In this document: positions 1,185 through 64,000 of the stretch, piece after piece
Layout: each line of letters starts with the position of its first letter
Numbering within the stretch: position 1 is the stretch's first letter
Assembly (NCBI GenBank): GCA_914767715.1
Contig: OU612068.1
Span: forward strand, 28,334,001 to 28,398,000
DNA from: Membranipora membranacea
Taxonomy: Eukaryota; Bryozoa; Gymnolaemata; Cheilostomatida; Membraniporidae
Reading direction: 5' to 3'
DNA: 64,000 bases
Program-made: the position numbers and the translations under genes
Notes under the pieces: model-generated
What the model was told of the DNA's origin: nothing
Databases searched by the model: none
What the model saw: the letters and a program-made list of their open reading frames with translations, nothing else

Positions 1185-2230
1185 TTTCTGATAAGTTACT
1201 GTAACTTTCCTTCCTCGTAAAACTTAGTTAGAACAAGGGTTGACGGAACCAAGTCACAAATTTAATACAAAACTGATAATTTTCTTTTTTCCTTTTCCGG
1301 AATTGGAAAAACATGGAATCATATCCACATAATAAAGAAACGATTACAAGAGAAGGCAATCCTTAAAGTGTGAAAACCTAATAAGAAATTATCTGCCAAA
1401 TCAATGTCCCGGCCAAACCCTAGCCTGCTGGACATTCCTAATATATGTTCCTGTGAAGAATATGTTGCATCAGCATCACCAACATCTTGTTTCTGACATT
1501 AAATCTTCTATCTATATGGTTTCCATGAATATAATAAGTGAAAAATATGAGTAAACAATCTGTGGTACGGCTGGGCTCCCAGAAGATTGAAGATTGGCTT
1601 ATTAAAGTCGGAGAAAAGATTTGGTCATTTCGAGGCAAAATTGAACTTTTGCTCAATGCGGGCTAAGCTCTTCATCTTTAGGTGCAGTTTTATGTTCGGT
1701 CAGTCGGTTGTTTTGAAAAAAATGACTCTGAAGATGACAGTTTAAAATTGAAGATTGCTCTATTTTTCTCCGAAGAAATTGAAGAGAGCTTTATGTGTAA
1801 GGAGTCCTACTGGCTAAGGACTGGGGAAAGCCGCAGAAAGCAAGTTTAGCAACAACGAATTGTAAAAATGATGGTATGGCCATGGTATGGCAGTCAGCAT
1901 CGCCTTCATCAATTTATTATAAATCATGGATGGATTGGATTTTTTTTCAGAAAAACAAAAAGGGAAAGTACTACATTTTGGTTAGACCACCACCACATTC
2001 TGTAACAAATATTCAAAGTTACAAGCCGCAACTTGCAACAGACTGGCGACGGCCTGTTCACTGGTATGGATATGAATTGTCTAAATTGGACGGACTCACT
2101 AATGCACTCCATTATCACTCATAGCACACAAAATTCAGATTTTAGTTGGCAGCCGAAAATTAATAACAAAGTAAAATTTATGTCTACATAATAATGTGTG
2201 GATAAAATATGTTTCAACCTTCACCCGTAT
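1185..2230. other. Intergenic, no recognised gene
   Basis: Upstream side of NCBP1. Short open frames exist on both strands around 1438-1656 and 1876-2124, but they resemble no family I know and have no clear splice or codon signature. Just inside NCBP1 intron 1, two small palindromes with the core GGTAGTCCTACC sit at 761-772 and 970-981. Confidence 0.5.
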
Positions 2231-2290
2231 TAGCCTGTCTTGACAAGCTTTGTTGTAGGGGGGGGGGGGGGGGGTTGTCAAGACAGGCTA
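2231..2290. mobile_element. Family A foldback insertion with G17 loop and 9-bp TSD
   Basis: Arms 2231-2246 (TAGCCTGTCTTGACAA) and 2275-2290 are perfect 16-bp inverted repeats. The loop holds a run of 17 G (2258-2274). The flanks are CACCCGTAT (2222-2230) and CACCTGTAT (2291-2299), a 9-bp direct repeat with one mismatch, as expected for an older target-site duplication. The left arm and the next seven bases match the copy at 32287. Confidence 0.85.
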
Positions 2291-2493
2291 CACCTGTATA
2301 TGAATGACTAAAATAATATAGCTGTGTATGTATGGAAATTCATAGGCATGGCTAAAAGTGTACGCGTATATATTATATATACAAGAAACTGATGGTTAAA
2401 ATATGAACATGTCTATACATAGGAGTATAAAAACTGTATTTCAACACTGACACAGAACATCGGTACATGTATGACAACCTCAGGTCGGGTGCT

Positions 2494-3167
<674 letters not shown>

Positions 3168-5589
3168 CTAAAAAACATTATAATATAATAATATACTAAT
3201 ATATAATAATGTAAAATTATTTTGTGAACCTTTCACACTCACTATATCTCAATCGGTACTTTCGGGAAAGTACCATCTGACCTGGCATTGGCTCTCTCCG
3301 TCGAACCCAATCAGAGCCATCACATTGGATAGATAATAATGTTTGTCCTTGGTTTCTGTAACAGGATCATCTGCTTGTGAAAAACACCTATCCAGAACTT
3401 AATGTGTCCATCTGTTTCAAGCGTTTCCATTTCAAACCTATCTTGATGGGCTTACAACGGCATCTGCCCCTGTGGGACTCGTGTCGGGATGTTGGTCGCA
3501 TAAGGATTGATGGGGACATTGAAACTGATATGTAAGTCAGTTGCAACCAGTGGATGCATACAACTACTACATGCTCATAACTACAATCACATGTGAACTT
3601 ACTGACAATAAATTTAGAGAATTGTGTAAAATCCTAACAATTTGATTTTGAATATATAACATCAGCTGGGTCCTTCATTAGGAATCAAGTGGGTAATAGT
3701 AGTATCAGTTACCGTTAGATTACCAGAAAACTGTAAACCAGTTAATTGAGCTCACTAGTTGTGATACATAAGGTTAACTTATTGTGTTAATAAATGCGCG
3801 CAAAAAAATAAAACTTTTATAGTGTTTCTAAATACATAGGCTAGCACTTGTCATACTTGGACAGAAGCGACTTACGACCCTGAATTTTTCAGTTTTCCTA
3901 TTACCAACTTCCTATATAACTCCACCTGAAACCTTACTGTCATGCATGTCTTCGGTGGGTTCCCTGAGCATATCAGTTTAAAGTAATATAAAAATAGATT
4001 GATGGTCGTTCAATATGCAAACCCAATGACAACTAGCTGGAAAAGTAGTTCTCGGGAATCATAGTACCCAGTCTTACCTTCAGTTCCTATTTGTATGTTT
4101 CACACTTTTCTTTCCCATCAGCATTATGTCTGCTCCATCCAAAATTGCAATAGTTTCTTCCTCTCCAAGACAAGAAGACAAATTTGACTTCAGTAAGTTT
4201 GCTTCCCCCAGGTAGGGTGCTCCCCTGCTTCCGCTTTATAAAAGCTTAGTATATGGAGTTGTCTCACCACAACAAGAGGGGGCACTATTCCAAACTTATA
4301 TCAATTGACAAGAACTATCCATGGAGGGATTTTGGGAAAAACTGACCAACTCTAGCCTGGGCCACCCACCCCCGACAAAACAGCCTGCCCAGGCTAGACC
4401 AACTCCCTGTTACAAAGATGGATGGGCAACTATGGATCTAAACGCCGCCGTCTATCATAAGGCCAAATATAAGTATTCATATGCATTGTAGCTCACAAAT
4501 TTGTAATTAATTCAATGTTGCACTCACTGTTCAGACATTTACATTTGCTTGTCTACTTGGACCTGTTGGATTGCATTCATTCATTATCTTTTGAAACAAT
4601 CCACTATTAACTGTAATGTGCTTGTGACAATCCATGAATCTAGGAGATCCTATTTAATGATAATCTATCCATCTTACCTTCTGAGAATTTAAGAAAAGAC
4701 TAATTAATGCATTATGGGATAATATTGAAATTACTCAACGGGAGGTATGAGATAGTCAACTATCCTCCTTCCCTACCCTGCAAATGTCTACTTAACCCCA
4801 GATCGATTTTAATCCAATTGCCTGCACTCAAGTTGCTCCCATCAACTGCTCAAGCCACAGCCTGCAGTCCGACCAGTCAACCAGTAACCCTACGCATCTG
4901 GTAGGCCTTTATGGTTGCCAAATTCTGTCTAGGGAAGGGAAGGGGCATAACCTAGTGGAGCTGTGAGCTGGATGTTATAAGGCGATTATGCACCAAGTAT
5001 TTTTTATGGGCTTTGGTGTGAGTAACCTTGATATACAACCCGGTGAATCAAAATCACCTGCATTATGATCACATCATCCTTGCTTACTTTTCTCCTGAAT
5101 GCGATAACCATGAAATAACCGCAGCGTGTAGTAAAACATGGTGTAAAAAAATTACCAGGTATAATCATTATCACCAATTTGAGAACACCAGTCTCTCGAA
5201 GTCTTACTACCATTTACAAATACAAATTTCGCTCAAGAAACAACTTGGATAAAAATGAGATGAAGAACCTACTTATATTTCTGCCCTTAAACAAAAATTA
5301 TTAATGGTTACGCACTGAGCAATGAAGTTCTACCTTGGGGAGATTGTGCTGCGCCACCCATCATGTATTATTTATTGAGGAAACTTTACCATAGAAGTTG
5401 AACCTAAGTATCCAGTCTAGTGTTGTGTGTATTGTCCAACGTGTGCAGAGAGAATAGTGATGGGCTAAGAACAAAGCCCTGGGGAGCTCTAGTGTTTGTC
5501 TTGTGATTTTCTCTAACCAAGAAAAGGTGCCAGCCCTAATGGACTTATCCCTAAGGTTATCAAGCTTTGCGCCGATCAACTAGCCCCTA
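3168..5589. other. Non-coding, one foldback insertion
   Basis: Apart from the family A element at 4353-4396, I see no gene, structured RNA or repeat I can name. If the exon pair at 2494-3167 is spliced to the Piwi gene, this region is intronic. Confidence 0.4.
4353..4396. mobile_element. Family A foldback insertion, 44 bp, perfect 9-bp TSD
   Basis: Termini TAGCCTGGGC (4353-4362) and GCCCAGGCTA (4387-4396) are inverted repeats. The element is flanked on both sides by GACCAACTC (4344-4352 and 4397-4405), a perfect 9-bp target-site duplication. Its right arm, ACAGCCTGCCCAGGCTA, is identical to the right arm of the copy at 26748-26790, so the two are related by descent. Confidence 0.9.
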
Positions 5590-6666
5590 ACAAGACTATT
5601 CAAAAATTCTCTAGATTCAGAAACAACACCAAAATTATGGAAAACTGCAACCATCAAACCTCTACCTAAAATCACCAAACCTGCTCAGCTTGAACATTTT
5701 GGACCTATAGCACTGACCAGCTGCCTAGTTAAAACCATACATACTGAGAATACACCGCTAGATAAATATCAGATTGCCTACAGAGCAGCGTGCCGCTCCA
5801 CACAGGATGCCTCACAACTACTGTCTCTAACTTTATAGATCAAAACTCATCATATTACGCACGCTGCCTCTTCTTAGACTTTTCATCGGCCTTCAACGCT
5901 ATAGATATCAAGCATTTACTACCAGAGCTGAAACATCTCGATCCACATATAATGAACTGGGTAGCAGAACACAAAGAACAATAGCCAACAATATCACATC
6001 TAAATCTATCACAACATATACTGGAACACCACATGGCTCAGTACTCGGTCCTCTATTGTTCTCCATATATTATACTAATAGTCTTGTCTCCACTGCAGTA
6101 ATGTCACCATACTAAAATACTCAGACGACTCCTGCATAATGAGATGCATCTCAGATAAGAACGATCTGCAGGCTTATTTCAAAGAGACAGAGTGTCAACA
6201 TTATGTAATCGACTAGATTTATCTTTAAAATCACCCCAACACTCAAGAAATGCGTTTGTGTACCAAAAGAGATAAACCCGACAGTACAACTCTGCAATTA
6301 GATGGTATAGAAATTGAATTGTGATAATGTTTAGTACCTGGGAGTTTAAATTCAAAACATGAGTGACCTTGATAGCATTATAGATAATCAACTAAAATCC
6401 TGATCCTAAACTACATACATGATGATGAACATTTTATAAATGACTTTTTACCACAGCTACAATCAGGAAGATAAAATACAGGTCTTCTTGGGGGAAAGAA
6501 GTTTTTTATGCACCATGATTTTATCCCTCAATAATAACCCAATCCACGATAGATGTCAGCTTTTCTTATGTACTTTATTTTTCTATGTTCTATGTGAACA
6601 GCAGTTTTATTAACAACGAATTTTGCAACATATTTGTATGCGAGTGACAAATAAATCAATCAATAA
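5590..6666 (+). mobile_element. Degraded LINE retrotransposon (reverse transcriptase remnants)
   Basis: Pieces of a non-LTR reverse transcriptase occur in order but in different frames and broken by stops. They are PKLWKTATIKPLPKI and the following PIAL (about 5630-5715), FLDFSSAFNAID (about 5867-5915), TPHGSVLGPLLFS (about 6030-6065) and a KYSDDS version of the YADD catalytic box (about 6115-6130). The 3' end is a short AATC-type tail at about 6648-6666. The 5' part with the endonuclease is missing. The copy is dead. It lies between the Piwi gene and the duplicated Piwi exons, on the opposite strand. Confidence 0.8.
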
Positions 6667-7609
6667 CCATCGGTCTCTTGCTACGATTATGAAGGAAACT
6701 TGTCACCAAGTCAGTCTCAGTTATGTCAGGTGTTGCTGGAGACAAGTATCTCAAGTATACCACTATAATGGATGAAGGACATATTGTTTGAAATTTAACA
6801 AGTCACTTGCCCATAGCGATTATACGCTATGAGTGATACAGGTTTGTAAAGATTACACTTGGGTCTTGGATGTGAAATTACTGCTGTGATCTTAATATGC
6901 ACCACACAAGTCTTAAACATTTTTCTTTCGAATTTATTTTTTATTAAAAAAAATTAAAATCTACACTAGACGAGACTACTTTTGCGATAAAATATAATAT
7001 GGTTTTGTAGCTGACAATGGTTACTGTTTTGGCAATTGTCGCATATATTACAGGTCCTCAGAAAATTGACACAGATTAAAAATTCTTTCTTTCCATGGCT
7101 GATGCAATGATGTATAGCATGAGGGTGAGTTGTAACTCTGATATTAATAATAATGGTGTAATGTTAGGTATTCATTTCTCACATGGATGTCATATCCTAT
7201 ACTTATTTGAGAAAGCAGAGATGATTGCATATCATAGACTCTATTAAGTCTATGTTGCGCATCCACTATCCAAGCTATATGCTACAGATGTATATATGAC
7301 TCAAGTGCTCTCACTGGTATTTTTGTTATGTATAAATATGGTGAATATATATGGGAAGTTTATGGACAAATTTACAGGGAGATCAAAGTATCTAAATACT
7401 GAGTAACTGTTGCTTTACTTTAGTAGCACCTAGGCCTATTTATACACTTGTTTTACATGAATCTTTTTGAAGTCTGTTATCTGGTCGATATCTACAAATG
7501 GTGTGGACTCCATTCACCTCCTTGCTACAGATTGAGCATTATTTGTTGTACTGTATAAGTCAGGAATATCTTCTGAACAGAGAGATTATCAAGCATTGGG
7601 CGTGTAGTT
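6667..7609. other. 3' flank of the Piwi gene, no recognised feature
   Basis: No coding sequence is recognised. A 22-bp palindrome with arms CATAGACT and AGTCTATG lies at 7233-7254; it has no convincing duplicated flank. Confidence 0.4.
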
Positions 7610-15556
<7,947 letters not shown>

Positions 15557-16620: not shown

Positions 16621-16665
16621 TTAGATTAGAAATGTTCTACAAACACTCTCACTTCAGTTGAGGAG

Positions 16666-16793
16666 TAGTCTAAGTGCTCAGACGGCTGCAAATCGAGTAA
16701 GTGGCATTACATTATCAAACACGCATTTGAAAATGAGTGTTTGATAGTGCTATGCCACTAACTCGCATTGCAGCCGTCTGGGCACTTAGACTA
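16666..16793. mobile_element. Long family A-like foldback, 128 bp, perfect 9-bp TSD
   Basis: Left arm 16666-16730 begins TAGTCTAAGTGCTCAGAC; right arm 16731-16793 ends GTCTGGGCACTTAGACTA. The arms are nearly complementary for about 60 bases with roughly ten differences. The element is flanked by GTTGAGGAG at 16657-16665 and 16794-16802, a perfect 9-bp target-site duplication. It shares TAG...CTA ends and the 9-bp duplication with the TAGCCTG copies but has a different arm sequence. A shorter relative is at 29784. Confidence 0.9.
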
Positions 16794-16802
16794 GTTGAGG
16801 AG

Positions 16803-18905: not shown

Positions 18906-20573
18906 AGAATTATAGCCCTATTCCACCGATACCCTTCCTTCTGTGATAAGCTAAACAACTACTACTCAACAGTTGGTGGTGAGCCTCTACCACTACCACC
19001 AAAAGCTGGATTGCAGTCAGCACAAGAACTCGAACACCTGAGTATTGGCGAGATAAAACATTTAATGAATAAGCTAGATGTGGGAAAATCAACATCGACT
19101 GAAGATTTCCCAACATGGGTCTCAGTGGAAGGGAAAGAAGACATATGCCTGCCTTTACATAACATCATCAACTCGATGCTAGACACCTCGGAATTTCCCA
19201 ATATGTGGAAGAGAGCACAAATCCGACCTATCCCTAAAATAGCTTGCCCATCGAAGTACAAGGATTATCGACCTATCTCAATTTTATTCCACTTAGGGAA
19301 GCTCTCTGAGGAGGTCATAATAAACAAAATGAGATCGAAGCTTGAAGCCGAAATTGACCCTGCCCAATTTGCATACCAACCAAACATTGGCACTGTAGAT
19401 GCATTAATAAAACTTCTTGACGGCTTCACATCTGAACTCGACAATCCTAACGTGAAGTTTATCCAAAGTGCTGTGATGGACTTTTCAAAGGCGTTCGACC
19501 GTTTGCAGCCTGCCATTCTCATTGAAAAGATGGAGAGATACAACTTCAATCCTCGTATCATCTCTCTAATATCAAACTTTCTAGATATGAGAATGCAATG
19601 TGTCAGGTATGGAGATCGGCAATCAAGCTATATATGCAGCAGTGTGGGCGCCCCTCAGGGAACCAAGCTGGGCCCCGTGTTATGGCTCATATACTCCAAT
19701 GATCTTTCTGCTGAAGGGTTCAATCATATTAAATACGCTGATGACACCACCTTCTATACGTCAGTCACCAACTATAACAATACATCAGCAGTGTCACCAG
19801 CAGTTATATCCACTCAAAGATGGGCAGCAGATAATAGCATGCAGCTGAACCCAGAAAAGACCGAGGTGATGAACTCTAGTTTGAGCCATAAGCATCATTA
19901 TAAACAAGATGTTGTGGTTGATGATTTATCTTTTTCTCCAAATTCATTCACAAAATTTTTAGGGGTTTTTATTGATAATAAGTTGTCTTTTAACAAACAT
20001 GTAGACTCTTTAGTATCAGCTTGTAGCTCAAGATTACTTTTAATGAGGAAACTAAAGACAATTGGACTAAACAGCTTTTTATTTGAGCAACATACGCTCA
20101 AAGCTTAGCTATGCTGCTCCGGCCTGGTATTCCTTGCTAGGCGAACATAACCGCGACAGACTTGAGAAAATACAAAGAGCAGCTCTGAAGATAATTTTTC
20201 CAGATTTAGAATACGATCATAGATTATCGGTCTTAGGCATCCCAAAACTCTGTGATTTTCTTTTTGATATCTCTTATTCACATTTTCTGCGTATAGTGAA
20301 TAATGAATCACATCCTCTTTTTAGTGAACTACTTTTCAACAAGAATTCCAGAACATCCTCTCGAGCTATACAAATTCTTCGGCCGAAACTCTGCAGGACT
20401 GAAAGGCGGAGAAAAGGCTTTTTTAATTTTTTCATGACCTATCATGACAACGGTCTAGTATATAAATAATTTTTAGTGTGTTGTTTTTACTATGCCATAC
20501 CATCGCTCGCATTCTGTACCATCTGTCATGATGATTGAATGAATACAAATCAAATCAAATCAAATCAAATCAA
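18906..20573 (+). mobile_element. 5'-truncated LINE with near-intact reverse transcriptase
   Basis: Open frame from about 18906 to 20108, then a shifted frame to 20469, encoding the reverse transcriptase and C-terminal part of a non-LTR retrotransposon. Visible motifs in order: RPIPK and YRPIS (finger/palm start), AFAYQ-like QFAYQ, MDFSKAFD (first catalytic Asp), GAPQGTKLGP, and KYADDTTFY (YADD box), then a thumb region with KFLGVFID and LSYAAPAW. A one-base length change in a T run near 20075-20080 breaks the frame just before the C-terminal block. The endonuclease domain is absent. The 3' end is an AAATC microsatellite (about 20545-20573), a tail type used by CR1/L2/jockey-like elements. 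Low decay suggests a fairly recent insertion. Confidence 0.9.
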
Positions 20574-21162: not shown

Positions 21163-22161
21163 TTAGGAATCTTTGCGTTTGGCACCATTGGCAGAGTGAG
21201 TTTTTACAGAGTGTTCATCTAAATATAGTTTAAGCTCGGTGGGAAAGTCAGTCATGATACCAGAGGCTCCGCACTGGAGAGCACGTCTCCACTCATGTTC
21301 ATTATTCAACACAAAAAAATATGTCAAAACGCCTCTCTTCTTCAGATGAGTAATTATCTTCTCATTGGTTATCATTGGATCCAGGACTGATAATACAATT
21401 TTCAGCCACCAAGTACCGGCTCTCTCCGGAAACGTTTCCGCTCTTTCCGCAAATAGACTACACATTGGAATCTCATAGTAGTTTGCATATAAAGGTAGAA
21501 AAGGCAGCAAGCCTGTGTAATACCAGAGTAGAGTTTTGAGTATCTCCGGTAGCGTATACAGAGTGTAGATGTTCTTATTACAGGGGCGTATATTCTTAGT
21601 GATGGATGAAGAGCCGTTGCCCCAGACTGTGATGCTTTCCCTCTTATATTTCTGTATCAGCTGATTAACAATGTAAACAAGCTTAATGTTGTTTGATTTG
21701 ATGTCAACATTCATCGGCATTTTAGGATATTTCTTGAATAAATCTTCAAGCAGCAGAATCCTTCTCTCTTCTTTCGGGATATTTTTGGTGATTTCGAAGC
21801 GATGATCAAAGTCAAGGCGTTGAGTGCACGACAAAGGAGGTAGATCGGCGTATAGAGTATTACTAATGAGAATATCCTCACCGCATAGTCTACAGAGGTT
21901 ATTATCATGCGCTACCATTGCATATTCATCTTTGGTGAGTTGGCAATCTATTTCAAACATGTCTGTGCCGAGTGACGCGGCATGATCAAAAGCCTTCATA
22001 GTGTTCTCTAGATTTTCACCAGCACCACCTCTGTGGCTGATATGTAAGCATACTGGGCCTGTAGCTTTTATATCTCCATACAGGATACGGGGGTACTTTC
22101 TACAGAGGTAGGATACAAGACTAAATCCAGCAAACAAGGTTGCTACAAGTTCAAGCACCAT
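21163..22161 (-). CDS. Glycerophosphodiester phosphodiesterase, GDPD1/GDPD3 type
   Basis: A 332-aa GDPD-domain enzyme. The GDPD1/3 (GDE4/GDE7) group acts as lysophospholipase D, splitting lysophospholipids or N-acyl lysophospholipids to lysophosphatidic acid, at membranes. An N-terminal hydrophobic segment (residues 3-20) is the likely anchor. The catalytic signature is complete: HRGG at 43-46, ENT at 52-54, FEID (E70, D72), then VAHD (H85). A second hydrophobic stretch is around LLWYYTGLLPFLPLY. The domain ends with CGASGIMTDFPTEL, typical of the family, followed by a polar tail. The coding region has no introns, unlike every other gene here. A splice acceptor (TTTTTGTTCCAG, exon from 22202) upstream of the ATG suggests one intron in the leader. 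Which paralogue it is cannot be told from sequence alone. Confidence 0.93.
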   Translation of the reverse strand: MVLELVATLFAGFSLVSYLCRKYPRILYGDIKATGPVCLHISHRGGAGENLENTMKAFDHAASLGTDMFEIDCQLTKDEYAMVAHDNNLCRLCGEDILISNTLYADLPPLSCTQRLDFDHRFEITKNIPKEERRILLLEDLFKKYPKMPMNVDIKSNNIKLVYIVNQLIQKYKRESITVWGNGSSSITKNIRPCNKNIYTLYTLPEILKTLLWYYTGLLPFLPLYANYYEIPMCSLFAERAETFPERAGTWWLKIVLSVLDPMITNEKIITHLKKRGVLTYFFVLNNEHEWRRALQCGASGIMTDFPTELKLYLDEHSVKTHSANGAKRKDS

Positions 22162-22482
22162 AGTTCTTCACAAAGTTTTTATCTCAGCAACTAGCTTTTG
22201 ACCTGGAACAAAAAGTTGATTTAGTTAGTAGAAAATATTGTCACAGTGTACAAACGATCAAGGATAAAAAGGGGAATAGGTATGTGTATGGATGTAAAAG
22301 TGACAGGTATCCATTAAAAATAAGAGCTCATGTTCACTTTATATGGTATACTCCACAAATCTCCTCAGTGTAGATTGAAAGTTTTTATTGATACCGATTC
22401 GATAAGCACAGAGTAATCTGCTCTTTGCTGATAGGTAGACAATTTCCTATGTTTATTTTAAATTCAGCGAGACTAGTATGAG

Positions 22483-26738: not shown

Positions 26739-26747
26739 GCTTCATGT

Positions 26748-26790
26748 TAGCCTGGGCAGGCTGCCTTACCCGGACAGCCTGCCCAGGCTA
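26748..26790. mobile_element. Family A foldback insertion, 43 bp, perfect 9-bp TSD
   Basis: Perfect 16-bp inverted arms TAGCCTGGGCAGGCTG (26748-26763) and CAGCCTGCCCAGGCTA (26775-26790) around an 11-base loop. Flanked by GCTTCATGT at 26739-26747 and 26791-26799, with the next base T also shared. This is the cleanest copy: arms without mismatch and duplication without mismatch, so probably recent. Confidence 0.93.
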
Positions 26791-27466
26791 GCTTCATGTT
26801 ATCAAACCCATGAAGTATTGCCGGTCTGTATATTTTAAATTCTAACATTTTATGTTATGCAAATGCAGTTGAAGAACAGGATCAAAGTGATGAATAATTG
26901 AAGTGTATCATTTGTTCAACAGTTCAGTCAATGAATAAAAGAATTCTCGGACTGAAAGAGTTGTATAAGATTTATGTCAGTGCGTTAGTGTAAGGTTTCA
27001 TATCTTCTAACACCTCTGAACTTTTGATGCCTGACTGGACTTATATTCTTATCTCAAGCATACTGCTGTGAAAACCAGCAGCAGGCAATGTAACAGTTGT
27101 GTAGAAATGTATTGCTAAGCGATAAGGATCATCACTAAGAGTAAAACACCTTCTTTTTAGTAATGATGCATGACTTGATTTAGCAAGCATCATTGCAAAT
27201 TGAGTATTGTATTGTGAGGTCAGTTAGTCAGAATCATGTGAAATATAGTATCAATTGTGTCTGCTTAGAAAACAGTATAGGGTAGCGGAAATTGTTAGCA
27301 ATATAAAAGGTGTTCACGCCCACATTTTTGCACTGCACAGGCAATCTATTACTAATCAGCATTACTAATAAAGTAAATAATAATGGAGCTGCAGCTGAAA
27401 TATCATGAAAATATCACAACTGGTTAATTTATCACCTCAGGCTGAAATCTATAACCCATCATGTTC

Positions 27467-27858: not shown

Positions 27859-30211
27859 TTAATTAGCCTTCACTTTTTTCTCATAAGTTCCTCTATCTTT
27901 ATATCCTTGTACATATCCATCCTTAGCGTTGACCTCCTCCCGTCCAGCGATCCCCTTCCCTTTACCGGAGTCGTCAAACCTCTCTCTATGTGTGCCTGTA
28001 TAGTTACTGGTATCTGTCATCCTATCAACTACATCCATCTTCTCTATCTTCTACGTTAATAGAAGACAAAGGATAACTAATAATAATATACTACTGCATT
28101 AGGGCAGCAGAGTACACTTTAACCTAAACCCAAGCTCACAAGAATACCTTAGGTGGGGTGCAGGGATGTTCAATAAGTGGGCGCTTGACACTAAAAAAAG
28201 ATCATAAAACTAAAGAATGCTGGTGGAACCACATTTATCTCAGCATGCAGCATAACACTTTAATTGTTTCATACCTATTCTTTTGGTAACTCAGGGTTTG
28301 GCGATCAGTGTTTAATGAGGCTTGATATAACAGGCCGGCGGGGTGACTGATTTACCAAACTTTCAAAGACATAGTTATATGATGAGTAATATAAATTTTT
28401 TCATTAAAGAGGTAGGAATCGAAGGGGGTGCACGGGGATTAATCATGTGAAGTGACAGGCAAGACCATTGGCTGATCAATGTAATTAGAGGCGGAGAATG
28501 GCCTTGGTCTCCGCCTCTAACAGCCAGTCCACGTTGCGTTCTCAAGTGGTCAAGTGTGTTATATAAGAAATTGTGATTCGCAGACACCCATAAATAAAGT
28601 TGAATAGAAGCTATGATATAGCTATTGTTGTGTTGGCTCATCACACTTGGGATTATAGGGTTTAATTACAACGGTCAATTTCAATCTTGACAATGGTATC
28701 TAGGCAACCTCTAAAACCATAAATCATAACGTCAAAATTGACCAATAAGAGCTCGTTAATTTTGAAGCGGATGATTTGAAATCATCGGAACTGGGCAATT
28801 TCGTATGACATTAGTCATATTTTCACCACTTTCCAATGCCATTATTGGAATGAAAATTTATTGGGCATGTGTATCACACAATTCCGCATCAGCTTGTCTG
28901 ATTCCCATTAAAAATAATTCACTGCTTCTCCTCTTAATTCCGAAAAAGCAGGAGGAATTTGAATGCTGCTAACCCCATTTGAATTTGATATGGCTGGGTG
29001 ATCGCTTTACATTGACTGGCCCTTATATACCGGCCGGTCGGTCTGGTAAATGGACTGTTTTAGGAAAACAAAGTTAGACACTGTCATCACCATAAACTGC
29101 CATGAGATGCAAATCCGTCAACACCTATCCTATGCTAGTCCCTATTAAGACAGATATGTATAGCTTGAATGTTTTAGATATAACTTGAGTCAGGTTCTAT
29201 AGTATGATTTTTTCTATAGTTTAATGAAAAAACTTTCTGTGAATATAATCATCAGCCAACATTGCTCGACATAAGATAACACATACTAGGTTATGCCTCT
29301 TACAGCGATACATAGTCACTTTTATATCAAGATCATAAAAGAGTGGAAAACACTTACAGTAGTACCACGTAGACCTGGGTCGTGGTCTGTGATGGTCGAG
29401 GTAATAGCAGTCACAGCAACATCTGAGCTCTCCAATGATTTGTCTTTTTGATATTTAGGTGCGATGGTTTTGATGAGTTCCTTGAATTGTCCTAAAGTGA
29501 TTTCTCTATTAATTTAAAGATAAGTAATACATTGGAGGGGTATACACCCAAGGGTGTTAGGAGCTAGAACAATCAACCTTGAAAGCTCCCCCAGTGGGAC
29601 TCGAACCCACAACTCCTGCAGCACCAATTGCCTGGCAGTGAATAGCAAGCGAGCTCATCAATATCCGCTTTCCATATATTATACCAATTAGGAAGGCAAG
29701 GAAAGTAATATGCATTAAATTTGGGTGATATGGCATCTCTCCTTGGAACACTAATAATTATTACACTACATCAAAAATCCCCATGTCTAAGTGCTCAGAC
29801 AGGAAAGGAATGTAAAGCCACACACTCGCACTTGCAGCAGTCTGAGCTCTTAGACTATAAATCCTAAAACAACCAGAATGTTACAGTTTAAAGTGCTGTG
29901 AAATAATAATTGGCAAGTCAAAATACTTTTGCAGCTTATAGTAGGTGATTGTGAAAATCGAATCAACTATGAAATATTTAAGTTATAACTTACTTTTTGC
30001 CTTTTTCTTTAACCTTGCTGAATGCGATATCAGTGTCAGTGGTCGTCAAACTTTTGCCATAAATTTTACAATCTTTAAACATTTTAGTGAGATTCTTATC
30101 AGAGAGAGTCCTCTTCTCAGTTTTGCTGTGATTACCGAAGTTACAGAATTTGTGAAACTGCTTTCCCAGTGTTCTCCCAGAACTCTCTGCACCACCACTT
30201 CCCTCCGCCAT
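27859..30211 (-). CDS. TPPP: Tubulin polymerization-promoting protein (TPPP/p25-alpha family)
   Basis: Microtubule-binding protein that bundles and stabilises microtubules; conserved in organisms with cilia. Three exons, 29994-30211, 29358-29505 and 27859-28050 (stop TAA), join in phases 2 and 0 to 185 aa. The p25-alpha core is clear: [19 protein letters not shown], then [11 protein letters not shown], then [15 protein letters not shown]. The C-terminal block [29 protein letters not shown] and [18 protein letters not shown] is the family's most diagnostic region and is intact. The N-terminus ([16 protein letters not shown]) is short and variable, as usual. The exon 3 acceptor AACGTAG at 28051 was chosen because it keeps frame. 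Intron 1 holds a SINE-like piece and a foldback element; intron 2 holds a perfect hairpin. TPPP2/3-like paralogues are not distinguished. Confidence 0.93.
28485..28520. repeat. Perfect 13-bp hairpin in TPPP intron 2
   Basis: TTAGAGGCGGAGA (28485-28497) and TCTCCGCCTCTAA (28508-28520) are perfect inverted repeats around a 10-base loop. Trimmed by one base the ends are TAG...CTA, as in family A, but the flanks show no 9-bp duplication. It may be an older or rearranged insertion. Confidence 0.8.
29585..29675 (-). repeat. tRNA-derived SINE-like fragment
   Basis: On the minus strand, a tRNA T-arm with 5-bp stem and TTCGAGT loop lies at 29594-29610, including a perfect RNA polymerase III B box, GGTTCGAGTCC (29597-29607). 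Upstream sequence looks like a worn anticodon and D-arm region (GAGCTCGCTTG...), but no matching 5' acceptor strand is found. It is therefore not a functional tRNA gene. It lies in TPPP intron 1. Confidence 0.55.
29784..29857. mobile_element. Foldback relative of the 16666 element
   Basis: Starts TGTCTAAGTGCTCAGAC and ends GTCTGAGCTCTTAGACTA, matching the ends of the 128-bp element at 16666-16793; the interior is shorter. The flanks share AAATCC, but the duplication is imperfect and shifted by one base, consistent with an older copy. It lies in TPPP intron 1. Confidence 0.7.
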
Positions 30212-30828: not shown

Positions 30829-32286
30829 CCATCGAGGAGCGGCTGCAGGATAAAAGATATCTCATTAGAGAGGATGGGTATCCTATCTTTATGACTCATC
30901 ATGGAGATGCATAAAATGGCCTGCTTTTATTCATTCTATGATATTTGCCAGAGGGGCCTGTCATTATTGATTTGCTGCCACTTTGCATAGACTTACACTG
31001 AACATGTAAATATCATTAGATAAAAAATGACATGATAAACGAGGGATATCAAATTCCCTGGATGAATTAGTGTCATAATGAGAGTTGCAGCAGCTCCATT
31101 GAGGAAGCATTACGTATAAATAAAATTTCAGCAAATGAAACGAGTACGCAGCAAATGAGGTGAAACCCCCATGGTACAGTACAACCCAAGTGCGCCTCCA
31201 TTCTGATTTTTATCCTGGGTTCTCCTGGCAACAGCTAAAACTTCTGAATGAATGCAGTCAATGTCATCCAACGTTCATTTATAACATTTCACCATTGCAG
31301 TTGTCACGAACTCTGGGGTTTCCTTTTTATTCCTCAAAAATGATCTATGATATTTTATAACACGCCTACTTCGCTTTACAACACATAGTAATAGTAACAG
31401 TATCCATTAACATGGTGTAAATTTACCTCCAGGCTAAAAGTAAAGTACTATATAAGGTAAATCTAGCCTTCCTCTACAATCCTGTTACAGCTTTAGAAAA
31501 CACAAACTACACGGCAAAACAGCTTCTTTCTATTATTATTTGCTAACACACAATCATAACAACATAAGCTCACTAACGCAGCCATTTGACAACCTCCCAA
31601 TCTTTGTGAATGTATACAGACAATATGGGTCAACCATCTAGTCAAACTAAAGTCCACATAATTTTAAAGTATGTACCAGCATCCTATCGGTATGATTACA
31701 GCTTGTATCTGCCACTAGCAGTTGTATCCCATTTGCACACATTTCATATAACGAGAATGGTTATTTGTGATTCATTTAATGTTCAACGCTAACAGTAAGT
31801 TCCATTAATTAATGAAGTATCAATCCTACAATTCACGCTGCAAAAAATTTCATCAGTACCTGTGTAATGTAGTGCACTGCCAGTCAAATTAACTGGCCTG
31901 ATAATTATTATTCCAGTCTTCTCTCATTCAGTAAAGTCCTCAGACTGATAGATATATGTATATGGATGATATATCCTTACTGCCTCAGGATGATTTCTCA
32001 TTGGCTAATGGCAAATGGCATAATAATTTTTTATCCTGGATATTCAGTTTATTGTATATCGCACATACATACAATACAGAACAATTAGGGGCTTAATTAT
32101 CTAACACCCTATCTATGTAACATTCTTAGCAGGTGCCCTCGTATCAGTATTTAAAACTCTCCTTGAATACCTCAACACTTCAGGGCGATGATTGGCATAT
32201 TGATTGCAATTTTTTGTTTCATTATGCGTTACCTTTTTTGCAAATTTATAAAATAAAAAACTGTGTGTTGATTGCACCACCTTTCT
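30829..32286. other. Intergenic between TPPP and HCF-1
   Basis: No gene recognised. TPPP and HCF-1 start codons are 4.7 kb apart and divergent, so this interval and its continuation to 34885 should hold both promoters. The rest of the interval is dense in small insertions, listed separately. Confidence 0.4.
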
Positions 32287-32368
32287 TAGCCTGTCTTGAC
32301 AAGCTTTGTTCGGTAGATGGGGGGCTTGTTCCCCCCACCCACCGTACAAAGCTTGTCATGAGAGGCTA
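32287..32368. mobile_element. Family A foldback insertion, 82 bp, perfect 9-bp TSD
   Basis: Left arm 32287-32309 and right arm 32346-32368 are 23-bp inverted repeats with two mismatches (left starts TAGCCTGTCTTGACAAGC). The inner part, CGGTAGATGGGGGG against CCCCCCACCCACCG, also pairs, so nearly the whole element is one hairpin. Flanked by CACCTTTCT at 32278-32286 and 32369-32377. It is the same subtype as the copy at 2231, whose loop is a G17 run. Confidence 0.93.
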
Positions 32369-32527
32369 CACCTTTCTACGCATTTGAATACAATATGGTT
32401 TCTGCAGTAAGAGAATGTCTTTGAAATTTCACACTCATATCATGATAACACTGGTCGGAAAATATTTTGTTCCAGAATCAATTTGGCATAGCTAGTAGCA
32501 TCACCATCTTATTGCACTACAAACCTC

Positions 32528-32543
32528 TTGCCTGCCCAGGCTA
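32528..32543. mobile_element. Minimal family A insertion, 16 bp, perfect 9-bp TSD
   Basis: Only TTGCCTGCCCAGGCTA separates two copies of ACAAACCTC (32519-32527 and 32544-32552). The 16 bases are both family A ends fused without a loop, with one change at the left end. The duplication shows it is an insertion, not a chance palindrome. Confidence 0.8.
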
Positions 32544-33350
32544 ACAAACCTCTATAAATAAATATGAACCATGCATGCTCGGATAAATGAGCATGACTAT
32601 ATATAGATATGGGGTCTCTTGAATCAGAACATGTATTACCGTACAGCAACACATGGGCGACTGGATCGGGGTGTATTGAAGGAGTTGATTGCACTATGGT
32701 ATCCTAAAAAATAACGATAAGGTAACGATGTGTTTACGTTCATTCATGACGTTTACAATATACAAATACAGCTTTGACATCTACGTTGAGATTGATACTG
32801 CTACCAGACCATAGAGGTTCCAATTGATAAGCTGAGTGCCGTGACCATGTATATGGCCCTGGGCCTATCCTAACATTCCATAGATCACATGACTGTAGAG
32901 CACTTTGTTAAAATGCAGTTCAATTATCAAATACATACAAGTTGTCTACTCTTTTTGACAGCTAGTATGATTCCATCATTTATTAATTTAAGACCTTGAT
33001 TACCATTGGTCAGTTAAATAGCAGTAGGCCAATTATCAGTTTTTTAACTGTGAAGGTATATAGCTCAGACAGCGCAATTGCAGGTAGATTTTACCAATGC
33101 AGGCCATGGTTGGCTTCACTCTTTTGAGTCATAAACATGTAGCTGGCTCTTAGAAAAGCAATTATTTTCTTGGAGGGAAAGATTTTGCAGCACTAAATTT
33201 GACTACTAAGGTATAAGGGTATTTCAAATTGTCCATTTCTGTCATATAACTCTGTAATCTGATAGTTCGAATTGTAGAAGAGTGTATATATCTAGAAATG
33301 ATGTGTTTCTTTGGTATCTATGACTCAACTACCTGAAGCCTGAATGGAAA

Positions 33351-33368
33351 CAGGGAGAATTCTCCCTG
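33351..33368. mobile_element. Family B mini-palindrome, 18 bp, perfect 7-bp TSD
   Basis: CAGGGAGAATTCTCCCTG is a perfect 18-bp palindrome flanked by ATGGAAA at 33344-33350 and 33369-33375. Shortest copy of family B. Confidence 0.75.
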
Positions 33369-33405
33369 ATGGAAATGAACTTCACTTACTCACTTATTTA
33401 TTTTA

Positions 33406-33937
33406 TTAAAGACTTCGGTAGGACCACAGCAATAAATAGTCTGGCAGCTAGTTCTCCAGTAATTATGCAATATTTTCACATTTAGAAAATCCAGAGCACT
33501 TGTGGGTAAAAATGATGTGTAGTGTTAGGGATTGTCCTCCCTTCTCATCGAAGAGCTATGAGGTATTTATGCGCCCTAGTGCTGTGCCAACATAATAAGC
33601 TTACACTTCAAAATACATTTAATTGCCATTCTTTCCCACATAAGTTCAAAATATATATAGTTCCATTGTCAGGAGACATTTTACAACAGTAGATAACTTC
33701 ATTCAATAGTTTTTAGTTGTCTCAAGTAGAAGAAGTATTAGCTTATTAGGTTGGCACAGCACTAGGGCGCATAAATACCTCATGGCTCTTAGATGAGAAG
33801 GGAGGACAATCCCTAACACTACACATAATTTTTACCCAGAAGTGCTCTGAATTTTCTAAATGATAAAATATATTGCATAATTACTGCAGAACTAGCTGCC
33901 AGACTATATATTGCTGTGGTCCTTCCGTAGTCTTTAA
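33406..33937. mobile_element. TTAA-flanked long inverted-repeat element (MITE)
   Basis: Two arms of about 195 bases, 33410-33602 and 33741-33933, are inverted copies with few differences. They read AGACTTCGGTAGGACCACAG at one end and AGACTACGGAAGGACCACAG at the other, and share the inner block GTGTTAGGGATTGTCCTCCC. The spacer is about 138 bases. TTAA lies directly outside both ends (33406-33409, 33934-33937), the target duplication of piggyBac and Kolobok transposons. No open frame for a transposase fits, so it would be non-autonomous. The terminal AGAC is not the usual piggyBac CCC start, so the superfamily is uncertain. Confidence 0.85.
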
Positions 33938-34194
33938 CAATTTTTAATTTTATAATAATAAATAAATTGCCCACACCACATTTCATCACGTGTGTTCCTG
34001 GGGCATGCACACATCATGTAGCATATATCCAGTCATTCAAAATATATGCAAAATTTAAGCTTGCAGGCCAAAGGGGCGAATTTTCACTTGCCAAGCCAGT
34101 GCAGTTGCTGCAATAGCTTTCAATCCATGGAACTATAACTATAAGGGTCAGAAGGAAAGGTCGAATCCAAAGACTGAAGGAGCCATAAGCAGTC

Positions 34195-34275: not shown

Positions 34276-34366
34276 CACTGGGCCTGGCCAGCCATTCACC
34301 AAAAACAGGTCTACTGTGGGTTTGCATGCATATAAATATTCGTATTATTATTTTATTATATTTATA

Positions 34367-34386
34367 TAGCTTGTCTAGACAGGCTA
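34367..34386. repeat. Loop-less palindrome with family A ends
   Basis: TAGCTTGTCTAGACAGGCTA joins the two TAGCCTGTCT ends directly, with one mismatch. The flanks are also palindromic (ATATTTATA and TATAAATAT), so no direct duplication can be shown. Confidence 0.6.
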
Positions 34387-34885
34387 TATAAATATATACC
34401 TTTTTTTCACATACCCACTCAAGCCTCCGGCTCGAGGGGGCTGGTTAATAAGGTGGTCATTATAGACCTAGACCTAGTGAAACGAGAAAGGTAGCCTTGT
34501 GGGTTACGAACGCTTAAATGTTATATATGTATAATTGATGCATGCATTATTTCTAACCACAAGGGTGGCGGGTGAACCGAGAATAGTATCAACTAGTCTC
34601 AGAAAGTATTGGTCAGGGGTCGTACTAACTGTAAGATGGCTTCCACACACTCTCATGAATAAACAAGGAATTTGAGTCAAGTTGATATTGTGTGCAATTA
34701 CTCCAGAGAAAATATTACTGCTGCTGTCTACAGTTTGGTGTAAAAATGTCTGATAATAATGTGGAAACTCGAACAGCACCTATCCCTTTCAACTTGTTGT
34801 CTTGCCCGATCAACTTTACAATCTTAGCAGTTTTGCCTGCATATTCATTCTGTTGTTATTTCAAGGCTCAGTGAACTAGTCTGAC

Positions 34886-37800: not shown

Positions 37801-40800
37801 AAGAATCAAGGGACTGTTCTACTGGGACATTCAGTTCATAATCAAGTAAGACCGAGAGCAGTACAGATTGTACAACGGGGCCAATCTCTCAAAATAAACG
37901 CACCCGGAGTAAGTTAGACTAATTTTTATTTCAAAATCAATGTCTCTGCATGGAATTATGTTTGTGACTAAACTATTTGACATTTGATCATATTTGCTGA
38001 AGAAACGGCTACTTTGATTTGATTTTGAACTTAGAAATGTACATTGATGTAAGCTTCTTTAATTATCCTTAGAAGTTTTTTTATGGGACTTACACAGAAA
38101 AATACAGAAGTCTCAGGTTCAATTCCCAAAACTAAAACTGCATAGGATTCTATTGTTAGATTTTTTTGCCATCATCCAGAATACACAACCTTAAATGTTA
38201 CCATACCCCAGTCATGATAAATCCAGTTTAAGAAATTGAACAACATTAACTGACCTACCATCAGAAATTGACAAAACAGAACATGTTTATCAGGGTTACC
38301 ATTAATGTGTTGAAATTATTATAAGGCATTTTGTATGTCAGAAGAGGTGAAAATTTATTTCAAATTATGTGATTTATTTTCAGCAACCGGCTCTACCTCG
38401 GACATATCTACACCAGACTAACAGAGGGAATCTGGTGCTGGCTAGTCAGTCTAGTGGACAGATACATCACAAGGCTGGAGGTATGTAAGACATCAGGATC
38501 GAATCATCCTTCAAGTGAAATTACATTGCATGCACTCAAACTGAGCAGACCTATGTTAGCGTGTCAAACATTTCTGCTATAAAACTACATGATGATCCAT
38601 TAACTACGTTATCTGACTTTGCTTTCTTTTTATTAAAAGTGAAACCAAAGATCGTACAGCCCATGGTGTTCGGTAAGCTGGCTATTCCTCGTGCCGTCTC
38701 TACAACAGCCAGTCTGGTAGCCCCAGCTGCTAACACATTCCCGCAGCAGCCAAGGCTGTTATTCCCAACCCAGACTACATCTGCTGACGTAAAACCAATA
38801 CAAAAACGAATCGTCGCCACCTCATCACCACAAAACATTATCTTAGCGACAAGTCAGAGCCCGAAACTTTCTATGCAGCAAAATGTAGTGCTCTCAACAG
38901 CTCAGATTGGCAACAAAAGCAAAGCGTTGTCTGATCAGGCCGCAATCTCACAGGGTGTATTACCTACAGGTCAATCACTTCCTAAAGTGATCACTCTAGT
39001 CAAAACTCCATCTCAAAACATCATACCGGTATGTCGAGTAGCTGTTTCACCTTATCTTAATTGTTTAGAATCATTCAGATTATGTATTTGCACACTAGAA
39101 AAAAAAAATTGTATACATGTATGATTAAAAGCATCTCCTTAAGTGAACTGTAGACTGGCCCAAAAGACCTGGAACTGGACCAGCCAATCGATGAACTGCA
39201 GTGCCAGGTCAATTAAGGCGAGATTAAAATACGAGGTCGTCAAATCATCGGCGACTAATCATGTTTTAAGTTTTATCACTTTCCATGCATATCATACACA
39301 CACTTATACACATCTGTACTCTTCTTGCATTGCAGGCAAAACCAAAGGCTAAGGAGCTGCCTACCGGAGCTAAGCTTATAAAACTGGCACCAGCTCAGTT
39401 TGCTGCTACTGCTGCAAAACAAAAACAGAATATGCTAGCTCTTAAACAAAATATCTCACTAACAACTCTGCCCAACCAAGTAAGCTTCATGCAGTAGTAA
39501 TTATAATCTATGATATTATGACTGATTTTACTAGCTTTTTTCACAATATTAGTATTGAATTTGGCTGCAACTAGCACTGCGTTTACTGTTTATGCGGAAC
39601 AAATTGACTATGCTGTTTGACAAGTGTTGTGCGCATGAAAGCCCAATGGATGAATTTGTAAACTGAGAAGTTTTAGTATGCTGCTACCAGGGAGGGTGCT
39701 ACCCTCCCTGGTGCTACTGTGCACCAGGGAGTACCAAACTCCCTGTGTGCACAATAATGTGTAGCTAAGTTGTCCTCTTATGATCAATGAGAGAGCAACT
39801 CCAAAATGATCCAAAATTAGATTTGTCCAGTCTATTCCGTCACCATAACTCAACTCAAGGTTGATATAAACCTCCATATGTGAGGAACTGTTGGCTTTAT
39901 AGGTGGATCTCATCTCAAATCCCAACATGTTAGATTGCATGTTCATAGCTCTGACGATTACTGTTTATTGCATTCATAGGTTATCCCACCCCGGTCTACG
40001 CATACTCCAAAGGGCAAACCTCATGGTCAGATAATACAGGCAGCTATTGGAGCAGATGGTAGAAGATTACTGTTAATTAGCCCTGCTCCTGCGAAAGCTC
40101 AGACACAATCACCGGGACAGAAAACAGCAGCCCCTCAAGGTACTGTGGAAAATCAGCAGAGTAAGATACAATCAGCCATTCACAAGGCAAATAGTGAGTG
40201 GCTTACAGTTATATTAATAAAGCAAAGGCCCTTGAGCACTTATCATGGAGAAACAGTAACTCCAACCATCAGGTAATGATTAAAAGTGAAACCTGGTCTG
40301 GAATATTACTGATATCAAGGATTACTTTTACTCTGCTAGAAACAATGCCTTCTTTTCATGTAAATTCTTTATTTTTCATATTGATGCGCTCAGGTACGAT
40401 TGTATATTAGGCATATAAATCTGAAGACCTTGTTTGCTGGCGCTTGTTTTGCTTTTTCCATGACTACTAGTTCGGTACAAAGACACTCTGGTACTTTGTG
40501 ATAGTAGTTTCAATCTTCTATTGATAGAAGGTACCCCTATGGATACAGATGACCCGTTTATCCAATGTGAAGATGATGATCAGAAGAGTCAGCAGGCAGA
40601 GGCAGCACAGTTTACTGTATCTCAGGTCAACAAAGGAGATCAAGATTACATGGCTCAGCTGCAGTCACAGATTAACACTGAGCTACTCCGTGAGGATCCT
40701 ATGCAGATAACCATGGAAGCAGCAAGTAAGATAAATGTTACGATTGTTCAGCACTTGCCTGCTACTAAGGATTCACTCGGTGTTGTATCTTTTCAAAGAA

Positions 40801-52357: not shown

Positions 52358-64000
<11,643 letters not shown>

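Follow-up and report, generated by a model that had tools for sequence, protein, structure and literature searches.

Short copies of a dispersed foldback MITE family with 9-bp target-site duplications in Membranipora membranacea are best read as solo TIRs

At positions 26739 to 26799 of a 64-kb stretch of the Membranipora membranacea genome, a 43-bp palindrome lies between two copies of a 9-bp repeat, which raises the question of whether so small a unit is a transposon or what remains of one. The stretch (C4:28334001-28398000, hereafter the window) belongs to an assembly of 339.3 Mb in 18 contigs. An earlier note on the window had described five palindromes with 9-bp flanking repeats. All five read as described, with sizes of 60, 44, 43, 82 and 16 bp, and four of the duplications were indeed perfect, the fifth (2231-2290) having a single mismatch. 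A sixth member, 16666-16793, had been overlooked. The TAGCCTG...CAGGCTA-type ends ascribed to all five were present, the left end of 32528-32543 being TTGCCTG rather than TAGCCTG. The members, assigned where possible to subfamilies A1 and A2, and one further candidate are as follows.

2222..2299: flank CACCCGTAT, 60-bp A1 element at 2231-2290, flank CACCTGTAT, one mismatch
4344..4405: flank GACCAACTC, 44-bp A2 element at 4353-4396, flank GACCAACTC, exact
16657..16802: sixth member; flank GTTGAGGAG, 128-bp full foldback at 16666-16793, flank GTTGAGGAG, exact
26739..26799: the locus in question; GCTTCATGT at 26739-26747, 43-bp palindromic A2 element at 26748-26790, GCTTCATGT at 26791-26799
32278..32377: flank CACCTTTCT, 82-bp A1 foldback at 32287-32368 with both arms present, flank CACCTTTCT, exact
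32519..32552: flank ACAAACCTC, 16-bp "solo TIR" at 32528-32543 (TTGCCTGCCCAGGCTA), flank ACAAACCTC, exact
34367..34386: candidate 20-bp A1 solo TIR, equal to the A1 TIR at 18 of 19 bases, without a direct repeat

Both TIRs of the element at 26748-26790 read TAGCCTGGGCAGGCTG. Two other members were asymmetric: the inner right arm was absent from the A1 element at 2231-2290, which contains a run of G, and the inner left arm was absent from the A2 element at 4353-4396. The sixth member, found by a scan that was not tied to TAGCCTG ends, has ends reading TAGTCTA and two 63-nt arms that are 87% complementary. The flanks of the candidate at 34367-34386 are inverted (TATATTTATA/TATAAATATA; whole stretch 34357-34396). 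A separate 34-bp palindrome at 28486-28519 (TAGAGGCGGAG...CTCCGCCTCTA) was without a matching 9-bp flank.

As a chance control for the window, 100 first-order Markov shuffles were searched for TAG...CTA pairs that spanned no more than 400 bp and had exact 9-bp flanks. The shuffles contained a mean of 0.26 such pairs, or 0.02 if at least five end bases were required to pair, compared with four pairs with at least six paired end bases in the real window (4353, 16666, 26748 and 32287). The element at 2231 adds a case with one mismatch, and that at 32528 starts with TTG and so falls outside the TAG...CTA count. With six members in 64 kb the window is unusually rich; twenty other 10-kb stretches held two further members with at most one flank mismatch, besides the listed places that they contain.

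The whole genome was then searched with the pattern TAGYCTG-N(2-32)-CAGRCTA, corresponding to 16-46 bp, and with the same pattern reversed as control. This search gave 1129 matches compared with 152 for the control (excess about 977). The corresponding numbers were 1051 and 108 for 47-76 bp (excess about 943), and 615 and 193 for 77-106 bp (excess about 422), for a total excess of about 2340 matches between 16 and 106 bp, mostly from 16 to 76 bp. Some pattern matches belong to other repeats, as do three near-identical TAGTCTG 60-mers in the 47-76 bp listing.

Flanks in the 16-46 bp class were compared at 50 listed places of the 1129 matches, all on contig C1 between 0 and 10.2 Mb, with two 20-mers of locus L061, 11 bp apart, counting as two. 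Exact 9-bp flanks were present at nine of these places, flanks with at most one mismatch at 18, with at most two at 25 and with at most three at 31. The remaining 19 had no 9-bp flanks within three mismatches; one of them had exact 8-bp flanks and another exact 10-bp flanks. From the control rate, about seven chance matches are expected per 50 listed places. When each flank length between 4 and 13 bp, both included, was tried on 45 hits (43 listed places and two window copies), 11 hits were exact at 9 bp and none at any other length. Among 20 copies of 47-76 bp, chosen by hand for clear arms from 50 listed places and leaning towards well-kept copies, 13 had 9-bp flanks with at most one mismatch and 12 had at most three arm mismatches over 24 bases. 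Thus, the genome-wide search for TAG(C/T)CTG...CAG(A/G)CTA copies with equal 9-mers that the earlier note had proposed yielded an excess over the reversed pattern, with 9-bp flanks standing out.

The target-site duplication of this family, hereafter the TAGYCTG family, falls in the range that marks Mutator elements (8-11 bp, usually 9 bp). TIRs, target duplications, high copy number and a length that leaves no room for a transposase gene are features of MITEs, and at 16666-16793 and 32287-32368 the inverted arms form nearly the whole element, as in Foldback elements. The family is a dispersed foldback MITE family that makes 9-bp target duplications and is Mutator-like in duplication length. 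MITEs are typically about 100-600 bp long, and many copies of this family are far smaller.

Empty sites were found in paralogous, rather than orthologous, copies, with the target present once. Together with the genome-wide excess of 9-bp flanks, they mean that the family withstood both refutations set out in the earlier note. The 16-mers at C1:8629372, C2:7204422 and C2:7294927 have common flanks and, therefore, the insert sits inside another repeat family. A genome search with the surroundings of the 16-mer at C1:8629372 gave 39 matches. Eleven paralogues of this host repeat were fetched and scored against the filled form and a predicted empty form, from which the 16-mer and one 9-bp copy had been deleted; three scored better as filled and eight as empty. 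By alignment, seven of the eight empty paralogues cleanly lacked the 16-mer and one 9-bp copy, C4:17834438 being ambiguous. The closest empty copy reads ...CAACAAATTAAACCCTC... where the filled form reads ...CAACATATTAAACC / TAGCCTGCCCAGGCTA / TATTACACC / CTC..., and the remaining empty copies have the same spacing with a diverged target. All filled copies carry the 16-bp form. Paralogous Piwi copies were rejected as a further source of empty sites, since the elements lie outside the stretches that are duplicated.

Copies in which both arms survive form palindromes about 50-110 bp long; their ends read TAGYCTG...CAGRCTA, and the loop is short and in many cases rich in G/C. A1 elements are built of TAGCCTGTCTTGACAAGCTTTGTTCGGTGGGG, then a G- or C-rich loop, then the inverse; a 60-mer at C1:295328 is very similar in build to 2231-2290. 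A2 elements, of which 26748-26790 and 4353-4396 are the window members, are built of TAGCCTGGGCAGGCTGTC.... The TIRs are themselves near-palindromic, that of A1 (TAGCCTGTCTTGACAAGCTT) self-pairing at 14 of 20 positions and that of A2 (TAGCCTGGGCAGGCTG) at 12 of 16. In copies such as C1:8531641, C1:12231576 and C1:6570929 the same substitution was present on both arms, and the arms can therefore be made alike. The 9-bp flanks of a compound 92-bp element at C1:10262373-10262464 matched at all but one base, although neither of its two parts had such flanks when taken singly.

A genome search with a 370-bp member (C1:4717016-4717385), which has exact 9-bp flanks, led to a related family of foldbacks whose similar ends read TAGCCTTGTCAAGC; this family has many copies of about 560 bp, a length taken from paired matches. 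A 282-bp member, L038:1401-1682, has a MITE from a different family (ACATAGGACTGCTGCAG...) nested inside it, and that MITE is widespread in the genome. A genome search with this 282-bp member mainly returned that different nested MITE, and no transposase was shown by the genome searches with the 282-bp and 370-bp members.

The transposase of the TAGYCTG family is probably of the Mutator (MULE) kind, a label given because of the 9-bp duplication. TAGYCTG-type ends were not recognised as those of a known MULE. The genome contained 32 matches to the MULE domain (PF10551). The earlier note had proposed a search for autonomous elements with the same ends and a MULE transposase; at the eight of these 32 loci that were read (L052-L055 and L062-L065, 6-8 kb each), none was bounded by TAGYCTG ends and a 9-bp duplication, and larger elements could exceed these stretches. 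The 804-aa open frame at C8 and C6 was rejected as the autonomous partner, since it belongs to a MULE foldback family whose ends are CGGTAACTG, not TAGYCTG. The MULE family at L052, L053 and L054:60-1983 comprises two 804-aa open frames, one of which was scanned and matched Transposase_mut at 35 bits, with an end reading CGGTAACTGTAAATTGCTGAAC..., and a 1.9-kb foldback whose ends are similar and whose 9-bp flanks (ACTCAAACC) are exact. Among viral contigs, the A1 TIR had no matches and the A2 TIR matched seven (L001-L007).

The copies of 16-34 bp are best read as solo TIRs, single ends left by deletion between the TIRs inside the original target duplication. The term was chosen by analogy with solo LTRs, which arise when the two terminal repeats recombine and a single one stays behind within the target duplication; LTRs are direct by design, whereas the TIRs of this family are inverted but act as direct repeats through their near-palindromy. 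In the proposed mechanism, the foldback elements are non-autonomous and would depend for their movement on a transposase supplied in trans, one that duplicates 9 bp of the target. Since the TIRs are near-palindromic, an inverted copy also reads direct, and the left and right TIRs can therefore align in direct orientation and might misalign head to tail. Slippage between these direct copies, for which replication slippage at the hairpin is one candidate pathway, or repair guided by microhomology once the element has excised or its hairpin has broken, would remove the interior. The outcome would be one hybrid TIR of 16, 20, 25 or 34 bp within the original 9-bp duplication. We infer both the deletion pathway and the occurrence of deletion after insertion. 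The explanation as a whole, a trans-mobilised foldback MITE, probably MULE, that collapses to solo TIRs, is in our judgement a likely one.

When product lengths were ranked by how well the left and right arms match in direct orientation, 16 bp came first for A2, and 20, 25 and 34 bp came first to third for A1; the arms were our own consensus, composed after the lists had been viewed. Among copies of at most 46 bp, 16 bp was the length of 7 of 11 A2 copies, and 20, 25 or 34 bp that of 18 of 30 A1 copies. Nine of the 50 listed 16-46 bp places fit neither subfamily and were excluded from these and from the junction counts. With 33 equally used lengths as the null, the excess of predicted lengths had a binomial p of about 5e-12, a value that is overstated if copies share descent. 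The predicted length of 25 bp was rare (1 of 30 A1 copies and 0 of 11 A2 copies), and 24-mers and 44-mers, which were not predicted, occurred twice each. The two 24-mers (C1:4334380 and C1:6983923) are identical as reverse complements and the two 44-mers (C1:4038563 and C1:7835475) are the same but for a single base. Such matches at separate places suggest that some short forms moved, or were copied, as such.

The exact 16-mer TAGCCTG(SS)CAGGCTA had 69 matches in the genome and none in the control. Among the matches listed, the centre was GG or CC in 50 of 50, as expected from a crossover between TIRs, and never GC or CG, although the pattern allowed them; some of these 50 are copies of one insertion. 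The 16-bp element of the window, TTGCCTGCCCAGGCTA, is one base off the predicted hybrid TIR. Flanks of 9 bp with at most three mismatches were present at 17 of 27 fetched 16-mers, or at 15 of 24 after removal of copies with shared flanks. Of the 20 16-mers fetched beyond the 50 listed places, 10 had no 9-bp flanks within three mismatches. Several 16-mers without such flanks resemble, by eye, the right ends of longer A2 elements.

Evidence for inner deletion also came from the window copies at 2231 and 4353, each without one inner arm, and from the junctions of 55 A1 copies, for which only 25 A1-like sequences of the 50 listed 47-76 bp places were used. Other bases lay between the arm pieces in 28 of these copies, and the pieces met directly in 27. 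Arm overlaps of at least 4 bases were found in 16 of the 27 directly joined copies compared with 7.6% of random joins; by distinct junction the microhomology was weaker, with such overlaps in 4 of 13. At no locus did a long allele occur alongside a collapsed one and, since the filled host-repeat copies all hold the 16-bp form, collapse after insertion was not observed.

The decay of the flanks was compared between short and longer copies, from which three duplicates and one entry with the same flanks had been dropped beforehand. Among copies with at most three flank mismatches, flanks were exact in 7 of 32 copies of at most 34 bp compared with 15 of 24 longer ones. Flank mismatches were higher in the shorter copies (p 0.0006), in a set that was partly hand-picked (20 of 50 longer copies) in a way that favours young ones. 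In the 16-46 bp listing alone, mean mismatches were 1.5 for copies of at most 34 bp (n=24) and 0.71 for longer ones (n=7; p 0.05). In 12 fetched 34-bp A1 copies, flank pairs differed at 22% of sites and the interior by 6.7% from the consensus. Judged from this 22% mismatch, many insertions appear to be old, and copies with exact flanks may be young. The description of the family as active or recently active is therefore borne out in part, by the 9 of 50 listed places with exact duplications, but does not extend to the many old insertions marked by the diverged flanks of the 34-bp copies. Similarly, the label of ultra-short transposon suits copies of about 50-76 bp, which look as if they moved as such, but the 16-34 bp copies look more like collapsed remnants.

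Three other explanations were weighed against collapse to solo TIRs. If the 16-34 bp palindromes were themselves mobile, the "solo TIR" would be the basic element and the longer elements compounds. The 69 exact 16-mers, the 9-bp flanks within three mismatches at 17 of 27 fetched 16-mers (15 of 24 without shared-flank copies), the recurrence of an identical 34-mer at three listed places and of an identical 24-mer at two, and the retention of the 16-mer in filled host-repeat copies all favour such mobility. However, the main size peaks sit where TIR-TIR homology predicts, the centres are solely GG/CC among the matches listed, and the flanks of the short copies are more decayed, albeit in a partly hand-picked set. 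Transposases usually need ends longer than 8-17 bp, which also counts against direct mobility, and we regard this reading as unlikely. Were it true, one near-palindromic TIR would be a sufficient substrate for transposition, and the 16-34 bp units would, to our knowledge, be the smallest DNA transposons known.

Alternatively, the short forms could be excision footprints: staggered cuts within the TIRs, like those of the P element, would have released a larger element, and the overhangs left at the site would have been joined. The retention of both ends and both target copies, and product lengths that fit annealing of self-complementary TIR ends, agree with this view. The asymmetric window copies at 2231 and 4353, in contrast, keep inner sequence, unlike terminal-overhang footprints, and Mutator excision usually leaves a small deletion, not the ends of the element; we regard footprints, too, as an unlikely origin. 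Almost no weight can be given to chance palindromes, or to a non-transposon repeat such as a protein-binding site, with coincidental flanking repeats. The 19 of 50 listed places without a 9-bp repeat within three mismatches and the matches that clearly are other repeats, such as the TAGTCTG 60-mers, fit such an origin, but it does not account for the prominence of 9 bp among flank lengths, a reversed control with 7 to 10 times fewer matches at 16-76 bp, or the paralogous empty sites; for the window and genome copies, chance was rejected by the shuffles, the reversed-pattern control and the excess of 9-bp flanks. As a separate observation, inverted rather than direct flanks of about 7-10 bp were present at L036:4989-5012, at L061:101-151 (by eye) and at 34357-34396 of the window, and are explained neither by solo TIRs nor by direct mobility.

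MULE MITEs and Drosophila FB elements have 9-bp duplications, long inverted arms and non-autonomous copies. The TAGYCTG family shares these features, but many of its copies are several times smaller and its ends were not recognised. A close parallel is the Tm1 Mutator/Foldback family of root-knot nematodes, with foldback TIRs, a MITE-like majority and duplications of 8-10 bp, mostly 9 (PMC3169594). Tm1 elements are 0.17-2.5 kb long; their ends, CGGTTAA/CCTACCC, are asymmetric, and their TIRs contain repeats of about 14 bp in tandem. The two families have in common foldback TIRs, 9-bp duplications, no clear target consensus and autonomous copies that are rare or missing. They differ in the very many 16-106 bp copies and near-palindromic TIRs of the TAGYCTG family, and in that no Phantom-type transposase with TAGYCTG ends was found at the 8 of 32 MULE loci read. 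In mariner MITEs, microhomologies at internal deletions have been ascribed to abortive gap repair (PMC5490172). The likeness lies in the discrete classes of derivatives that arise when the interior between short direct repeats is deleted. The mariner deletions, as described there, founded MITE sublineages, whereas in the TAGYCTG family the TIRs themselves are the direct repeats and the product is a single TIR. No description of the TAGYCTG family or of solo TIRs was found among the open-access papers that the literature searches listed.

The following other features were noted in the window. The genes neighbouring the elements also include a Bcl-2 protein and an exon that resembles the kelch part of HCF, below the Pfam cut-off.

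2376-14399, minus strand: Piwi gene with PAZ, Piwi and Piwi_N pieces; a late coding stretch is duplicated, the second copy diverged (2888-3184 versus 8427-8723, 78% identical)
18906-20105: 400-aa open frame with a reverse transcriptase domain (RVT_1)
21163-22167, minus strand: GDPD1-like open frame, with its nearest named relatives in Watersipora subatra and Bugula neritina at 52 and 54% identity, which points to a bryozoan host, and further relatives at 100, 84 and 71%
33403-33940: foldback, about 540 bp long, whose 209-bp arms are 92% alike, borders approximate
33351-33368, 39725-39745, 52957-52977 and about 39689-39711: second ultra-short palindrome family, 18-23 bp, with CAGGGAG...CTCCCTG-type ends and 7-bp direct repeats (ATGGAAA, TGTGCAC, GTAGGCC), the fourth (about 39689-39711) imperfect, by eye

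The TAGYCTG family offers a testable case in which a transposon remnant of 16-34 bp can still carry a perfect target duplication. Very many tiny "insertions" can be scars of mobile elements, which repeat-masking programs that need longer matches are expected to miss. Should units of 16-34 bp themselves move, the minimum size of a transposon would have to be set anew. If collapse to solo TIRs is a general route, the lengths of the remnants in any family with quasi-palindromic TIRs could be predicted from those TIRs.
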